Source of the DNA: Candidatus Mnemosynella biddleae
Lineage (GTDB): Archaea > Halobacteriota > Archaeoglobi > Mnemosynellales > Mnemosynellaceae
DNA: 64,000 nt
NCBI GenBank assembly: GCA_002011165.2
Contig: MTMI02000010.1
Span: 62,001 to 126,000, forward strand
Reading direction: 5' to 3'
Numbering within the stretch: position 1 is the stretch's first letter; every line of letters begins with the position of its first letter. A program made the position numbers and the translations under genes. The notes below the pieces were generated by a model that worked only from the letters and a program-made list of their open reading frames with translations, had not been told where the DNA came from and did not search any database. This document shows, in pieces, positions 9,466 through 51,939 of this stretch.

Positions 9466-9594
9466 GAATAATCCAAAAACCGAACAACATTAGTTAAAGT
9501 AGCTAAATCTCCATGCAGATTTTATAATCACTAATTTGTGAGAAATTAAATAACCACGAACGATTTTAAGGTTTTAAAATGCGATTCATGGAAA

Positions 9595-9624
9595 TTTTAG
9601 CGATCTAACCAATATGCTTATTTG
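9595..9624 (+). repeat. Imperfect direct repeat, copy 2
   Basis: Second copy of the TTTTAGCG...TAACCAATATG motif found at 9436-9465. No third copy was noticed in the window. Confidence 0.5.
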
Positions 9625-9735
9625 GAGTTTTGAATGCTCTCATTATATTAGTTGTCTCCGCTCACATCCGCTTTTAGCTGGTTTTTTGTGAACATGTAAC
9701 AGCATTAACCCCTAAAGGAGCTCTGGAAGTATTCC

Positions 9736-9759
9736 TACATTTCTATGTGTAGAAATGTA
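9736..9759. repeat. Perfect inverted repeat, 10-bp arms
   Basis: TACATTTCTA and TAGAAATGTA are separated by TGTG, a perfect hairpin-forming repeat in the decayed region. A related sequence (ACATTTCTTTAAAGAAAT) follows at about 9833. Could be an old operator, recombination site or terminal repeat. Confidence 0.6.
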
Positions 9760-9834
9760 TGGTGATGGACCCGAAAACCTCCTTAGAGCTGAGAAATTTC
9801 GTGACTATCCTGATTTTTTGCCTCCTAAACCTAC

Positions 9835-9850
9835 ATTTCTTTAAAGAAAT
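9835..9850. repeat. Perfect 16-bp palindrome
   Basis: ATTTCTTTAAAGAAAT reads the same on both strands. It shares ACATTTCT with the hairpin at 9736-9759, as if both derived from one recognition sequence. Confidence 0.55.
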
Positions 9851-9936
9851 AGTATGTGCCACATACAAGGGGAGGAGTGAAATAAAATAACGAGGGCGTA
9901 AACCTCTGCTTACCATTTCACTGAGTGGGACTGAGA

Positions 9937-10089
9937 ATGGTTATGCCAAAAAAGAGGATTAATGTGAATATAGAAGAGAACCTTTACAATTGAGCTAAAG
10001 CCATGGGGGATTAACATCTCAGCTTTTCTGAAGAGCAGACTCAAAGAATTCCTAAAAGCCCGAAAATCAAATGGGCCCGGCCGGATTTG
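9937..10089 (+). pseudogene. Broken ribbon-helix-helix (CcdA-type antitoxin-like) gene
   Basis: Reading from the ATG at 9943 (or 9937) gives MPKKRINVNIEENLYN, then a TGA at 9991-9993, then AKAMG in the same frame, and, after a +1 shift in a run of five G residues near 10005, INISAFLKSRLKEFLKA. Joined, this is the beta-strand plus two helices of a small ribbon-helix-helix DNA-binding protein like archaeal CcdA-type antitoxins. One nonsense codon and one frameshift make it a pseudogene. The shifted frame runs into the 3' end of the neighbouring tRNA before stopping. No toxin gene is beside it. Confidence 0.6.
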
Positions 10090-10146
10090 AACCGGCGACC
10101 GCCCGGTTATGAGCCGGGTGCTCTGACCGGACTAAGCTACGGGCCC
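10072..10146 (-). tRNA. tRNA with CAT anticodon (probably tRNA-Ile2, else elongator tRNA-Met)
   Basis: 75-base cloverleaf on the minus strand: acceptor GGGCCCG (10146-10140) pairs with CGGGCCC (10079-10073), discriminator A at 10072, anticodon stem CCCGG/CCGGG, loop CTCATAA with CAT at 10111-10109, T-arm with GGTTCAAATCC. It is not an initiator: the first pair is G-C, not A-U, and the anticodon stem lacks the three stacked G-C pairs of initiators. The G-C-rich GGGCCC acceptor resembles archaeal tRNA-Ile2, whose C34 is converted to agmatidine by TiaS, also encoded here (56473). The Ile/Met choice is inference. Confidence 0.9.
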
Positions 10147-10194
10147 AAATAACAAAAAGTAATTATCCCCGAATGCTTTAAATTTTTCGGAGAG

Positions 10195-10788
10195 ATGAGA
10201 CTGAGAAAGCTAGAGATTATGCTCCAAAAATTGGAGGATATTCCAAGCCCTTCTCCATTTATTGAGCAGTATGTAACCCCACCAGAAATAGCTGCGAGAT
10301 TATTGTACTACGCTTATCTCAGAAATGAGCTTGAGGAGGTTGTGGATCTTGGATGTGGAAATGGAATTCTAGCAATAGGTGCTGCACTCTTAGGAGCCAG
10401 AAAAGTAACGGGAGTTGACATAGATGAGAAAGCAATCGAAGTTGCAAGAAGAAATGCCGAAAAATTGAGAGTAAATGTAAATTTCATGTGCTCTTCTGTC
10501 GAGGAGTTCAGATACGAAGATAGATGCACTGTGGTCATGAATCCGCCTTTTGGGGCGCAGAGAAAACATGCGGATAGAATCTTTCTGAAGAAGGCAATTG
10601 AAATTGGAAATGTAATCTATTCCATTCACAACAGAGGTAGCAGAGAATTCATCGAAAAATTCATTGCTCCCTCAAGAATTACTGATATATGGGTTGCAAA
10701 ACTTCCTATAAAGAGAAGATTTAAATTCCACAAGAAAGATAAAGTGGAGATCGAAGTCGAGATATACAGAATAGAGGTTCTGATATGA
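10195..10788 (+). CDS. Predicted RNA N6-adenine methyltransferase (Mettl5-like, COG2263)
   Basis: 197 aa class I AdoMet-dependent methylase. [20 protein letters not shown] (residues 47-66; key DLGCGNG) binds AdoMet, [11 protein letters not shown] is motif II, and NPPFGAQ near residues 116-122 is the catalytic motif IV typical of N6-adenine methylation. An acidic YVTPPEIAA stretch near residue 26 is characteristic of the Mettl5 branch, which in eukaryotes methylates one adenine of small-subunit rRNA; rRNA is the likely target here (inference). The stop overlaps csl4 by four bases (ATGA), placing it in an RNA-processing and transcription operon. Confidence 0.85.
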
Positions 10789-46016: not shown

Positions 46017-47933
46017 ATGGCTGTGGGACAGGAATCAATTAGAGAGGAGCTGAAGAAGAAGATATCTGAAAAGTTACCTGAAGGAGTGAATATAACCGAT
46101 CTAGAATTCGAAGGACCGGAATTGGTGATCTACACTGACGAACCAAGAAAAATTGCAGATGATGCCAACTTAATCAGGTCTCTTGCAAAAGAACTCAGAA
46201 AAAGGATTGTCGTTCGGCCAGATCCAAAAGTTCTCGTACCTCCTGAAGAGGCTGTTGAAGTAATCAGAGAGATTCTTCCAGAAAATTCAGGAACACTTGA
46301 TTTCCATTTTGATCCAGAAACTGGAGAAATTCTAATAGAAGCCGAAAAGCCCGGTCTTGTCATTGGAAAACATGGTGCAAATCTCAGAGAGATAACGAAA
46401 AAAATCGGATGGACTCCGAGAGTTGTCAGAAAGCCTCCAATAGAGTCCTCAACCGTAAAGAATATAAGAGCGTTTTTCTTGGCAGAAAGGGACTCCAGAA
46501 AGGATGTTCTTAGAAAAATAGGACAGAGAATTCACAGGGAGATAACTTCAAAGGATCAATGGGTTAGAGTTACCGCTCTCGGGGGCTTCAGAGAAGTGGG
46601 AAGAAGTGCAGCACTTCTCTCCACTCCGAATTCGAAGATTCTCGTTGACTGCGGAGTAAACACAGGATCAGAGGAGAACGGTATACCCTATCTCTACATT
46701 CCAGAAGCTAACCCGATCTCGGAAATTGATGCAGTAGTAATAACTCACGCCCATCTGGATCACTGCGGTCTTGTGCCTTTACTTTACAAATACGGATATG
46801 ATGGACCGATTTACTGTACACCCCCAACAAGAGATCTTATGGTTCTGCTTCAACTTGATTACATAGATGTGGCGAACAAAGAGGGGAAGAGAGTTCCCTA
46901 TGATTCCTCACTCATAAGAGAGGCTTTAAAACACGTGATAACTTTGAACTATGGGGAAGTGACAGACATAGCTCCAGACATTAGGCTGACATTTCACAAC
47001 GCAGGCCACATCCTCGGTTCTGCGATAGCTCATTTCCACATAGGAGAAGGTCTTTACAACGTTGCATTTACGGGAGACTTCAAATATGAAAGAACCAGAC
47101 TTCTCGAACCCGCAGTTAACGACTTTCCGAGGCTTGAGGCTCTTGTCATGGAGGCTACCTACGGAGGGGCAGAGGACTTCCAGCCGTCAAGAAGAGAGGC
47201 AGAGGCTCAGCTCCACAAAATAATCAGAGACACACTCGACAACAAAGGAAAGGTCCTCATACCCGCCTTTGCAGTTGGAAGATCACAGGAAGTCATGATA
47301 GTTCTGGAAGAAGCTATGAGAAACGGAGTGATAGACGAGGTCCCGATTTACCTCGATGGAATGATCTGGGAAGCAACAGCGATTCATACAACCTATCCAG
47401 AATACCTCAATTCGGAGCTTAGAAACCTGATATTTCATCAGGGAGTTAATCCCTTCCTCTCTGAATATTTCAAACAGGTGGACTCAAACTCGATGAGAGT
47501 AGACATTCTGGATGATCCCGAACCGTGTATCGTTCTGAGCACATCTGGAATGCTTAACGGCGGCCCTGTAATGGAATATCTCAAAGCGTTTGCTCCGAAT
47601 GAGAAGAACACGTTAATTTTCGTCGGTTATCAAGCTGAGGGGACTCTCGGTAGAAGGCTTCAGAAGGGATGGGAAGAGATACCGATGAGTCATGAGGGAA
47701 GAACGATAACGATAAAGGTAAACATGAGGATAGAAACCGTTGACGGATTTTCGGGTCATTCTGATAGAAGACAGCTCATAGAATACGTGAGAAGAATGAA
47801 GGATAGACCTGAAAAGATGTTAACTGTTCATGGAGATGGTATGAAATGCATCGAACTGGCGAGCGCACTTTACAAGAAGTTTAAGGTTGAGACGAGAGCC
47901 CCAATGAATCTGGAGACGGTGAGATTCATCTAA
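46017..47933 (+). CDS. fttA: Transcription termination factor FttA (aCPSF1)
   Basis: 638 aa, the archaeal CPSF73-like ribonuclease that ends transcription. N-terminal KH domains (about residues 1-180, with [19 protein letters not shown]), then a metallo-beta-lactamase core with HAHLDHCG near residues 243-250 as zinc ligands, a beta-CASP domain ([11 protein letters not shown]-like [13 protein letters not shown] near 420) and a C-terminal [11 protein letters not shown] His motif. All catalytic residues are intact. Its stop overlaps the ABC ATPase gene on the other strand by four bases. Confidence 0.96.
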
Positions 47934-48685
47934 TCCACTGCTGGTATGACGTGCACCCTTCCGTTATTTTTGATGACGTGAAGCTTGGTCTCATAGACCT
48001 CAGCGAGCGTCTTCTCATTAAGAACATTCGATGACTTTCCAAAACTCACAATTCTACCATCTTTCATCATTAAAACTTTATCTGCAAAGCTCGCGAGAGA
48101 TGGATCGTGCTCGCTCAGTATTACAGAGATGTCTTCTGAGATGTCTCTGAGAATGCGATAAAGCAGTATTTTATTTTTTATATCCAGATTGGAGGTCGGT
48201 TCATCGAGAAGGAGAACCCTCGGTTCCTGAACAAGTGCTCTCGCAATTAAAACAAGTTTCAGCTGACCGCCGCTAAGGTGTGTATAGGGTCTCTCCGCAA
48301 GATCAGAAATCCCAAGTTTTTCGAGAGTTCTCATAGCAACTTCGTAATCATTCTTAGTAGGAGTTCTGAAACCAAGATGCGGAGCTCTTCCCGCTATCAC
48401 CACATCTATCACGCGATAGGGAAAGGACGGAACATGCATCTGAGGAACGTAACCGAGAATTCTTGCAAGTTCCCGGCGATTGCAGTTTCTAAGATCAAAA
48501 GAATCGACGTAAATGCACCCCTGAGACTTCAAAATGTATGCAAGGCATTTCAACAGAGTGGTCTTCCCACTTCCGTTAGGACCGAGAATAGCGAGGATTT
48601 CCCCTTTTCTCACTTCAAAAGATATGTTTTCTATTTTGAAGTCTCTATAACTGAACCTCAAACCCTCAACCCTAACTCCATTCAT
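47930..48685 (-). CDS. Corrinoid/iron-type ABC transporter, ATP-binding protein
   Basis: 251 aa of the FecE/BtuD family. Walker [10 protein letters not shown] (residues 34-42), signature LSGGQ near 137, Walker [12 protein letters not shown] near 157-167, switch His in SEHD near 190. The starting region overlaps the permease end by 14 bases. Together with the permease and the lipoprotein it makes a complete importer whose cargo (cobamide, haem or ferric chelate) the sequence cannot settle. Last gene of the operon. Confidence 0.92.
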
Positions 48686-49691
48686 ACATCGCCCTCCTCA
48701 TCAGGTAGAGGAATACTGGAGCTCCGATCAGGGTGGTTATTATTCCAACTGGTATTTCGAAAGTCCACAGTGTTCTTGAAATCAGATCGGCAAGAAGCAT
48801 GAATGAGGCTCCTACTGAAAGTGAACTTGGCAGAAGAATCTTAGGATTGGATCCAACTAGGAACCTAGTCATATGGGGTGAGATTAGACAAACCCATCCT
48901 ATTATTCCAGTCACAGAAATAACTGAGGCGGTCGCAATTGACGCTAAGAGAATTACCAGCATTCCCTCCCTCTCAACATCAACACCGAGGGCTTTCGCCT
49001 CTTCATCTCCCATAGATAACAAGAAAATTCTCCATCTCAATATCAGAAGACCGAAGATTCCAAATATAGCAAGAGGAGCTGAAGTAAATACATCCCCCCA
49101 AGTTATCGTATGAAGTCTTCCGATAACCCAAGCAACAATCGTCTGAGTCTTCTCAGGTTCAACTAGGATCTGAACCAAAGAGAGCAACCCAGAAAATAAA
49201 GCTGAGACAATTATTCCCGCTAAAATCAGAGAGATAGGTGAGAACTGACCTCTAAATTTTGCCATTGAAAGGGTTAAGAAGATTGCAATCAATGCGAAGA
49301 GAATGGCAGATGGCTGGGTTAAAAAGAAGTAACCCGCTCCAAACAGAGCAATAGATAGAGAGGCCCCAAATGCAGCTCCCGAAGATATCCCGAGTATATA
49401 AGGACTTACGAGAGGATTTCTCAAAGTCGTTTGCAATGCAGCCCCAGAGACTCCCATGCATGCTCCGAAAAGCATAGCTTCTATGGCTCTCGGCAATCTA
49501 ATATTCAAAAGCACAGACCTTTCAATTGTTTCTTCAAATAAACTTGAAGGTAATTCAACTATTGAGAGATGATATCTTCCAACACTCAAGTAAATTATGA
49601 AAAATAAGAGTGGAAGAAAGAGCAATCCGAACTTATACTTCAGAGACCCCGAACTCTTCCCGAAACTCTGTGCAAACTTCATCGACACCAT
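48672..49691 (-). CDS. Corrinoid/iron-type ABC transporter, permease
   Basis: About 339 aa, FecCD/BtuC family, with roughly ten hydrophobic segments. LLNIRLPRAIEAMLFGACMGVSGAALQTTLRNPLVSPYILG (key RLPR and QTTLRNPL) is the family signature and GWVCLISPHMTR the loop contacting the ATPase. Start ATG 49691 has GAGGTG four bases ahead; TTG 49703 and ATG 49682 are alternatives. Thirteen bases after the binding-protein gene. Confidence 0.9.
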   Translation of the reverse strand: MVSMKFAQSFGKSSGSLKYKFGLLFLPLLFFIIYLSVGRYHLSIVELPSSLFEETIERSVLLNIRLPRAIEAMLFGACMGVSGAALQTTLRNPLVSPYILGISSGAAFGASLSIALFGAGYFFLTQPSAILFALIAIFLTLSMAKFRGQFSPISLILAGIIVSALFSGLLSLVQILVEPEKTQTIVAWVIGRLHTITWGDVFTSAPLAIFGIFGLLILRWRIFLLSMGDEEAKALGVDVEREGMLVILLASIATASVISVTGIIGWVCLISPHMTRFLVGSNPKILLPSSLSVGASFMLLADLISRTLWTFEIPVGIITTLIGAPVFLYLMRRAMYEWS

Positions 49692-49716
49692 AGAGCACCT
49701 CAAACTATTTCATTTC

Positions 49717-50757
49717 CTAAACCTCTGATAGATTGAAATCTTCCTTCAGCTCTGTGTAAAGTCCGTTAACACCATAAACGAACCTGAAAATGTCGTTTGC
49801 CTCCTTTTCAACGTCATAGCTGAACTTATCTGGATGTAGAGCTTTTGCGTACGCCATAACATCTATCACAAAAGCCTCAGGATACCATCCAACCCAACCA
49901 ATGAGCAGTTTGTAAACTTTCTTCTCTTTCACAGCTTTTACTGCCTGCCAGTTTGAATCATTCAGAAGATCTTCTGGATTGCTCTTTCCAAAGGCATGAA
50001 GAATTATAATGTCTGGATTCCATTGAAGCACGTGCTCCATAGAAACTGTGACCCAAGGTGGTTTAACATCGGGCATATTTTCGTGGACAACGTTTATTCC
50101 TCCGGCATATTTAGTAGGCGAGCCGGCCCACGCATGAGCAATGAGTACTGAATCTGCTCTGGTTTCGTAGACTTTCGGCTTCTCTGAATCAGTTATCTGA
50201 GAAGTTACGCTCGTTACCGCATTCATTTTCTTTTCGAGATACGATTTTAGCTCCTGAGCTCTTTCTTCCTTCCCCACAACTTTTCCAATGAGTGATATGA
50301 TTTCTAAGCTGAACTCGTGCTCCGGTGGAGGAGTGACTCTGACGCAAACAACTGGTATACCAAAACTCTCCTGCAGTTTATTTGCGAGCTCAATATCCTC
50401 AGTTCTCACGAATACTACATCTGGTTTAAGTTCAGCAAGCTTTTCTAGGCTTAGAGTCCCACGAACTGAGCTCCCGACATCAGGTGTCGTATTTATTTCC
50501 TCAGGAAAAGCTCTCAACAATATGGGGTCTCTTTTACTATCTGTATCCAAACCAATGAGTTTATTCTGAACGCCCAGTGCAAAAAGCACTCTCGTTGCCT
50601 CTGGCCACAGACTGACGATTCTCTCGACTTTACCAACCTCCACCTCTCTTCCAGCTTGATCAATGATTTTTACCGTAGCTTCTTTCTGCTCCACACACCC
50701 AGTAAAGAGAGTTCCGATGAGAAACAGAGAGAGGATGAAAACCGCAGTCTTTTTCAT
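49717..50757 (-). CDS. Corrinoid/iron-type ABC transporter, substrate-binding lipoprotein
   Basis: 346 aa periplasmic-binding protein of the BtuF/FhuD class. N-terminal signal ending in LFTGCVEQ (lipobox with Cys21) suggests a lipid-anchored protein outside the membrane. It has two domains joined by a long helix; RIVSLWPEATRVLFALG and AELKPDVVFVR are typical of the family. Lone His and Trp-rich stretches near SMEHVLQWNPD do not identify the ligand. ATG 50757 overlaps the radical SAM gene by four bases. Confidence 0.9.
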   Translation of the reverse strand: MKKTAVFILSLFLIGTLFTGCVEQKEATVKIIDQAGREVEVGKVERIVSLWPEATRVLFALGVQNKLIGLDTDSKRDPILLRAFPEEINTTPDVGSSVRGTLSLEKLAELKPDVVFVRTEDIELANKLQESFGIPVVCVRVTPPPEHEFSLEIISLIGKVVGKEERAQELKSYLEKKMNAVTSVTSQITDSEKPKVYETRADSVLIAHAWAGSPTKYAGGINVVHENMPDVKPPWVTVSMEHVLQWNPDIIILHAFGKSNPEDLLNDSNWQAVKAVKEKKVYKLLIGWVGWYPEAFVIDVMAYAKALHPDKFSYDVEKEANDIFRFVYGVNGLYTELKEDFNLSEV

Positions 50758-51797
50758 TCTATGTCAACCTCCATTCCCATTTCCTTAACGAGTCTTGTAG
50801 TCAGAGGAAGTAGATTCACAAACTCCAGCCCATTATATCTGGCTACAATTGCTCCAGCATGAGGAGTTCTCCACGCATTTGCTCTGTGGATATGAGCTCC
50901 GAGATGAATTGCTCTGTTAGCTCCAGCCATAATCCACAGTGGAAGAAGTTTCGGATCATTCATCATGCCACCAAAAGATATGTCGGGAGTTCTCAGCACG
51001 AGTCTTGCAATTGCTCCGGCTTTTGCAACTTCAAATGGATTTGCCAGAGGTTTGCTCTGAAATGGTGTTCCAAGAATCGGATTCAATCCGGTAATGCAGA
51101 CGTGACTGAGATTCTCAAACTTTTTTAACCAGAAAAGATGGTTCACATAGTCTTCATAACTGCTTCCTATTCCCACCATCATGACGCTTGTGAGTCCCAA
51201 ACCAACTTCATTTATCTCCTCTGCAAGCTTCATTCTGGCTTCAAGGCTATCTCCGGGTTTTGCATCTCTGAAGACTTCTGGATTAATCGTTTCAAGACTG
51301 CTACATACCTCCGTGACTCCCAGCTCTTTCAGCCTTAGCAAATCCTCTCTAGTTAAAGATGGTCCAACGTTTACCCATACGTCCATTAAAGAGACTTTTT
51401 TAATGGCTTTCGCACTATTGATTACCTTCTCACAGGCCCCTTCTCGAGGGGTTCCGCCACCAATTTCCACTCTTTTCGTTCCGGTTTCAGCAATGAGTTT
51501 GGCTCCGAACTCAATTTCCTCGATTGTTAAAGTCTTCTCAGCAAAATCCGAGCGATTTCCAGCAGATCTACTACAGTACTTGCATGGCGGTTCTGTGTCG
51601 CATGAAGTTATAGAACCAATGAAACCATCAAATTTAAATATAGCTCCCTTTTCGTTATCTCTCACTTCTGATGCCACTTTCATGAGCTCTGATAACTCAG
51701 AAACGCCTCTGACACCTTTAAAAAGCTGAAGAGCTTCTTCTCTTCTAATTTCATCACTTTCAGCATTTTTAAGTATATTTATTATTAATTCTTTCAT
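50754..51797 (-). CDS. BioB-like radical SAM protein with CX5CX2C motif (HmdB/HcgA-like)
   Basis: 347 aa. Cluster ligands are Cys66, Cys72 and Cys75 in SCDTEPPCKYCS, that is CX5CX2C rather than the usual CX3CX2C; this spacing is known from HmdB/HcgA, which builds the guanylylpyridinol cofactor of Fe-hydrogenase. VEIGGGTPREG is the GGE-like loop, and SSLETINPEVF and ITGLNPILGTPF follow as in BioB-type barrels. No Fe-hydrogenase or other hcg gene is in the window. First gene of the operon, translationally coupled to the importer. Confidence 0.8.
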   Translation of the reverse strand: MKELIINILKNAESDEIRREEALQLFKGVRGVSELSELMKVASEVRDNEKGAIFKFDGFIGSITSCDTEPPCKYCSRSAGNRSDFAEKTLTIEEIEFGAKLIAETGTKRVEIGGGTPREGACEKVINSAKAIKKVSLMDVWVNVGPSLTREDLLRLKELGVTEVCSSLETINPEVFRDAKPGDSLEARMKLAEEINEVGLGLTSVMMVGIGSSYEDYVNHLFWLKKFENLSHVCITGLNPILGTPFQSKPLANPFEVAKAGAIARLVLRTPDISFGGMMNDPKLLPLWIMAGANRAIHLGAHIHRANAWRTPHAGAIVARYNGLEFVNLLPLTTRLVKEMGMEVDIE

Positions 51798-51819: not shown

Positions 51820-51939
51820 GCTATTTAAAAGTTTCTCATAAAAACTCCAAGCTCAAATGAATGCTCAGTAAAAGCATAAAAAGAACAAAGCTTGGTAAAT
51901 AGAAGAAGGAAAGTAATTAAATGAGAAAAAGAGGAGATT

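Follow-up and report, generated by a model that had tools for sequence, protein, structure and literature searches.

The window, the whole 64,000-nucleotide stretch of DNA that was analyzed, carries a four-gene operon at 47930–51797 on the minus strand, in which the gene of an HcgA/HmdB-like radical SAM protein (rSAM) is followed by those of a substrate-binding protein (SBP), a permease, and an ATPase (Table 1). The last three form the complete gene set of a type II (FecBCD-type) ABC importer. The rSAM and SBP genes overlap by 4 nt and the permease and ATPase genes by 14 nt. The original prediction had the gene positions, strand, and order right, including the four-base overlap of rSAM with the binding-protein gene, and its domain assignments were upheld by Pfam. 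The source genome is complete (1.50 Mb) and belongs to the class Archaeoglobi; its nearest relative is Candidatus Mnemosynella bozhongmuii (L031), whose rSAM is 77% identical. Thermosome and beta-CASP genes flank the operon in both and are syntenic. In M. bozhongmuii (L031 2586-4421), a methyltransferase, a PNPOx-like gene, and a second binding protein lie between the SBP and permease genes; the window has 13 nt at this place (49703-49717), a clean loss or absence of these three genes.

Table 1. Features of the operon and its upstream region in the window.
Feature	Position	Strand	Basis
HcgA/HmdB-like radical SAM protein (rSAM), operon gene 1	50754..51797	-	347 aa; Pfam-confirmed domain
Peripla_BP_2 substrate-binding protein (SBP)	49717..50757	-	Pfam
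FecCD-family permease	48672..49703	-	PF01032, 293 bits
ABC ATPase	47930..48685	-	PF00005, 105 bits
C66-x5-C72-x2-C75 codons, [4Fe-4S] cluster motif	51573..51602	-	40/40 family proteins
H298-x-G-x-H302-x-H304 codons, possible extra metal site of importer clade	50886..50906	-	12/12 importer-clade proteins
GTATTAC-TCA-GTATTAC, NikR-type half-sites, direct repeat just before rSAM start codon	51803..51819	-	sequence
TATA-like element CTTTTAAATA, directly upstream of half-sites	51822..51831	-	read from sequence; putative

HmdB/HcgA forms 6-carboxymethyl-5-methyl-4-hydroxy-2-pyridinol, a precursor for the FeGP cofactor. HcgA makes this pyridinol by itself out of a small metabolite (PMC10100467). rSAM shares with HcgA, its nearest characterized relative, the CX5CX2C motif and a BioB-like barrel; its AlphaFold model (pLDDT 92.1) shows a full barrel of the BioB/HydE/PylB kind, and the rare cysteine spacing singled out beforehand proved to be real and invariant across the aligned family proteins, genuine HcgA among them. 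The best curated model for rSAM is TIGR03957 (HmdB), but its score of 179.5 bits is below the cut-off of 320.9, compared with 523.1 bits for L171, a genuine HcgA encoded in an hmd-hcg cluster. A tree of 45 proteins places the five genuine HcgA in a clade of their own (support 100/99), with the window rSAM outside, and the remaining family members in a separate group (93/90). rSAM falls into a 12-member clade (99/95) drawn from Archaeoglobi, Methanothrix, Baldrarchaeota, Thermoproteota, Desulfobacula, and a bin labelled Aerophobetes; deeper joins are unsure because of long branches. Model score and tree mark rSAM as kin of HcgA/HmdB rather than a member. All importer-clade proteins carry HxGxHxH near the C-terminus, which is absent in HcgA and reads Y/C in the Archaeoglobi genus g3; H298, H302, and H304 may form an additional metal site. 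A phmmer search of the source genome with the Hmd and Hcg proteins of a real hcg-hmd cluster, in which four contigs of 1–1.8 kb were read as N, found no hmd or hcg genes, and the best match of the HcgA query was rSAM itself. The lack of hmd and hcg genes near the operon thus extends to the genome as searched, apart from this match, and the absence of hmd and hcg genes refutes an Hcg function for rSAM.

Two further observations concern the family. The CX5CX2C proteins of genus g3 (L049-L054) form a divergent subfamily of at most 36% identity and have no importer genes next to them; in L054 the g3 gene lies near CooS and oligopeptide/nickel-type transporter genes. A Thermoproteota family member (L234 9594-10349) is interrupted by stops or frameshifts and followed by part of a binding-protein gene, suggesting a decaying copy or poor assembly.

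The conservation of the rSAM–importer pairing was surveyed with neighboring genes called by phmmer using the window and locus proteins. Leaving out genuine HcgA and genus g3, and counting some closely related loci, an importer component lies within about 1.5 kb of rSAM on the same strand at 27 of 29 loci; beside genuine HcgA there was none (0/5 loci). The paired loci span Archaeoglobi, Methanosarcinales, Baldrarchaeota, Thermoproteota, Desulfobacula, and Firmicutes, which is more than chance would give, and the proposal that the pairing might be private to the source genome is refuted. Two loci lack the pairing: L208 sits on a contig of 3.7 kb, and the neighbor at L232 is an unclassified membrane protein. 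The S-component-like gene of L232 had no Pfam or NCBIfam match. The family itself is sparse, occurring in 16 of 394 sampled genomes of the phylum, besides five HcgA carriers, and in 0.3–1.5% of the genomes sampled in four other phyla. The importer type varies and rSAM stays constant: most importers are FecBCD, with NikA/NikB-like components in L040, L042, and L168 and an ECF importer in L039. The S-component gene of L217 matches PF09605. Adjoining the Desulfobacula rSAM is a TonB receptor that scores below cut-off in all heme, siderophore, and B12 models.

Other genes recur beside rSAM. An O-methyltransferase-family gene adjoins it in Archaeoglobi (Mnemosynella), Methanothrix, Methanosarcinales, and one Firmicutes genome, and cupin and PNPOx-like genes accompany it at some loci. 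LarC (above cut-off), CbiM, and NikA/NikB-like genes are near in L042, CobN in L034 and L043, and FmdE and DUF364 in L221 and L168. A role in heavy-metal chelation has been proposed for DUF364 (PMC2954201).

We then asked what the window importer carries. Against the equivalog cut-offs, it scored 25.3/234 bits for BtuF, 218.4/461 for BtuC, and 138.1/281 for BtuD, all below. It has the type II superfamily and gene set in common with BtuFCD, but a separate FecBCD set elsewhere in the genome fits the corrinoid models better (BtuC 321.8 bits, BtuF 116.8 bits), and BtuFCD was rejected as the best label for the window importer. In fold, the SBP most resembles 4hn9, MolA, YiuA, and H. pylori CeuE/NiuB; BtuF was not among its 50 best fold matches. 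This speaks against BtuF as a close relative; molybdate or iron would still fit. Riboswitches, B12 included, gave no match at the gathering score across eight loci, and a single snoRNA match in the window is attributed to chance. The original prediction had envisaged a new job on an imported pyridinol, corrinoid, or metal chelate. A corrinoid role is not supported by model scores, fold, or riboswitches. The best fit is a new function linked to uptake of a metal chelate, and kinship to HcgA makes pyridinol chemistry plausible.

By analogy, the closest working precedent for the window operon is H. pylori NiuBDE (CeuE/FecDE), a FecBCD-type nickel importer whose promoter was pulled out with NikR and is a NikR target (PMC5140060). 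The SBP matches its fold at TM 0.72–0.82. NiuBDE differs in having no reported radical SAM gene and in belonging to a bacterium with an outer membrane. At the profile level, SBP is closer to MolA (molybdate; 124 bits) than to CeuE/NiuB (71 bits), a sequence-level result that speaks against nickel.

The operon's upstream region bears directly on the metal. Between the putative TATA-like element and the rSAM start codon sits GTATTAC-N3-GTATTAC. NikR half-sites have been published as GTGTTAC, with GTaTTAC given as a variant (PMC545781). The motif was first sought as a candidate chosen beforehand, and the ranking over all words came later: among 6053 words counted in 120-nt regions ahead of nine importer-clade rSAM genes, GTRTTAC ranks first. 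It is present at eight of these nine loci versus a background of 1.3% (p = 6.5e-15), and at five of six after related lineages are collapsed; before the rSAM genes of Desulfobacula (L038), L034, and L235 it is absent. The window rSAM is the sole one of the source genome's 1477 ORFs with two half-sites upstream, and its pair is one of two anywhere in that genome. Across 17 genomes, half-site pairs show no genome-wide enrichment (33 vs 37 in a reversed control), and only their location, not their number, is informative.

The geometry of the window operator departs from that described for the delta-proteobacterial NikR regulon (nikMNQO, nikKMLQO): the half-site is the same, but the two window copies are directly repeated 3 nt apart instead of forming an inverted or everted pair with a 13/14-nt spacer. 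They could be bound by another ribbon-helix-helix regulator. The published palindrome (N12-15) was found in five of 60 relatives, mostly inside or away from relevant genes; Archaeoglobi therefore do not generally use that form. The everted form GTAACAC-N14-GTGTTAC, published for Desulfotalea (PMC545781), occurs in the Thermoproteota locus L232, where nikR and the rSAM unit diverge across it. A second lineage with nikR at hand is Met33H (L039/L217), with the gene order S-component, rSAM, CbiQ, EcfA, nikR and half-sites ahead of the S-component gene and of a divergent cbiM. Half-site pairs also stand ahead of cbiM (L216 and L217) and of a second FecBCD set (L215). This last operon, in Baldrarchaeota G395 (L215 8632-12374), has pairs before its binding-protein and permease genes, and its final gene encodes a radical SAM protein of another kind (CX3CX2C, 245 aa).

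nikR is present in nine of 10 distant genomes, and Desulfobacula, which is without nikR, is also without the motif. The source genome encodes NikR (contig C7:167665-168090) with the nickel ligands H, HxH, and C conserved, as they are in all four NikR proteins inspected, along with one CbiMQO set and a CooS. McrA, sought as a sign of nickel demand, is absent from this genome. The original prediction had left the metal open; the operator sequences and nikR neighbors now point to nickel, and the NikA/NikB-like, LarC, and CbiM neighbors of rSAM lend support. We consider nickel a rather likely cargo.

On this basis, we propose, with a probability of roughly 0.47, that the window operon serves NikR-controlled nickel acquisition, in which rSAM builds a nickel ligand and the importer takes up the complex. 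The operon, its importer linkage, and the half-sites are seen in the sequence, and NikR binding, the metal, the ligand, and the reaction are inferred. When nickel is short, NikR would come off the GTATTAC sites, which lie between the start codon and the TATA-like element, allowing joint expression of all four genes. rSAM, with its CX5CX2C [4Fe-4S] cluster and SAM, would then build a small nickel ligand from a common small metabolite, perhaps a hydroxy-pyridine by analogy with HcgA. Outside the membrane the binding protein would catch the nickel–ligand complex, which the FecCD permease and ATPase would bring in. In relatives, the methyltransferase, cupin, and PNPOx-like protein may tailor the ligand; the source genome keeps only rSAM and the importer, so one enzyme must suffice there.

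The same nickel framework also accommodates the reverse chemistry, in which the importer brings in a foreign nickel chelate or tetrapyrrole and rSAM cleaves or remodels it inside the cell, freeing nickel. Radical-SAM haem breakdown releases iron in some anaerobes. Motif enrichment and nikR neighbors apply equally to this alternative, which is favored by the missing exporter and by a window cluster of just one enzyme and an importer; the ECF S-component adjoining rSAM in L217 likewise suggests import of an organic molecule. HcgA chemistry, the O-methyltransferase, cupin, and PNPOx-like neighbors, and DUF364 near rSAM in L168 and L221 instead favor ligand synthesis: HcgA, the only characterized close relative, builds a ring (PMC10100467), the accompanying genes are of a tailoring type, and relatives with bare CbiM/NikA-type importers need no chelate breakdown. 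We therefore regard breakdown as somewhat unlikely; given nickel, rSAM would make a ligand rather than break one with modestly better odds than even.

Slightly less likely still is import of another metal species (cobalt/corrinoid, molybdate/tungstate, or an iron chelate), the half-sites then belonging to that metal's regulator. FecBCD importers carry all these cargoes, zinc may be the metal sensed by some NikR homologues of archaea (PMC3087415), and the MolA-leaning SBP profile and the CobN, FmdE, and DUF364 neighbors point the same way. The better BtuFCD set elsewhere, the missing riboswitch, and the place of BtuF outside the 50 best folds weigh against it, as do nikR genes with intact nickel ligands adjacent in two lineages and the LarC, NikA-like, and CbiM neighbors. 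It is scarcely credible that rSAM is a genuine HmdB/HcgA supplying the pyridinol of the FeGP cofactor, with an importer next to it by accident: its best curated model and rare motif agree, but its score, its place outside the HcgA clade, and the conserved importer linkage do not.

Staphylopine/pseudopaline-type metallophore systems rely on opine chemistry and a dedicated exporter. As in these systems (for pseudopaline, see PMC5719457), the window encodes a putative ligand-making enzyme with a chelate importer; the opine enzymes are unrelated to radical SAM proteins, however, and no ligand exporter gene was seen in the clusters. Of the components of a metallophore system, an importer is thus present and rSAM is a candidate synthase. 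In the open-licence papers searched, no description was found of an rSAM–importer–NikR unit, nor of any radical SAM enzyme linked with nickel uptake or NikR; the only archaeal nickel/cobalt importers that had been reported were Nik/CbiMNQO, NikABCDE, and NiCoT (PMC2667541). The linkage of rSAM to metal-chelate importers, and apparently also to NikR, in many unrelated microbes points to an undescribed way of gathering nickel, in which rSAM probably makes a small nickel-binding molecule; its dismantling is less likely. A broader scheme is tentative and on the doubtful side: a sparse, widespread anaerobic nickelophore system under NikR control, in which an HcgA-like rSAM makes a nickel ligand of the pyridinol type and the complex is taken up by the host's ABC or ECF importer, of whatever kind. 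If so, the chemistry for nickel shortage would be the older one, and HcgA with its FeGP-cofactor synthesis would represent a sister branch of it.

Nickel acquisition by anaerobes in sulphidic settings is poorly known, and methanogens and CO users need nickel (PMC10617489). The family would add a FecBCD-type nickel importer to the archaea and supply the first enzyme candidate for an oxygen-independent nickel ligand. HcgA, itself tied to nickel shortage via Hmd (PMC3087415), would gain relatives with a clear physiological cue.

Three further observations were made in passing. At the Firmicutes loci L221 (13294-14343) and L223 (14292-15341), the importer is accompanied by another radical SAM protein, distinct from the first; L221 also has DUF364/DUF4213 and FmdE genes. 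A single GTAACAC lies 10 nt before an agmatinase/arginase-like gene outside the window (contig C9:221630) and may be chance. The surroundings of the genuine HcgA gene at L172 (around 9567-10658) include two nikR genes, both no more than 6 kb away, which fits nickel control of Hmd.
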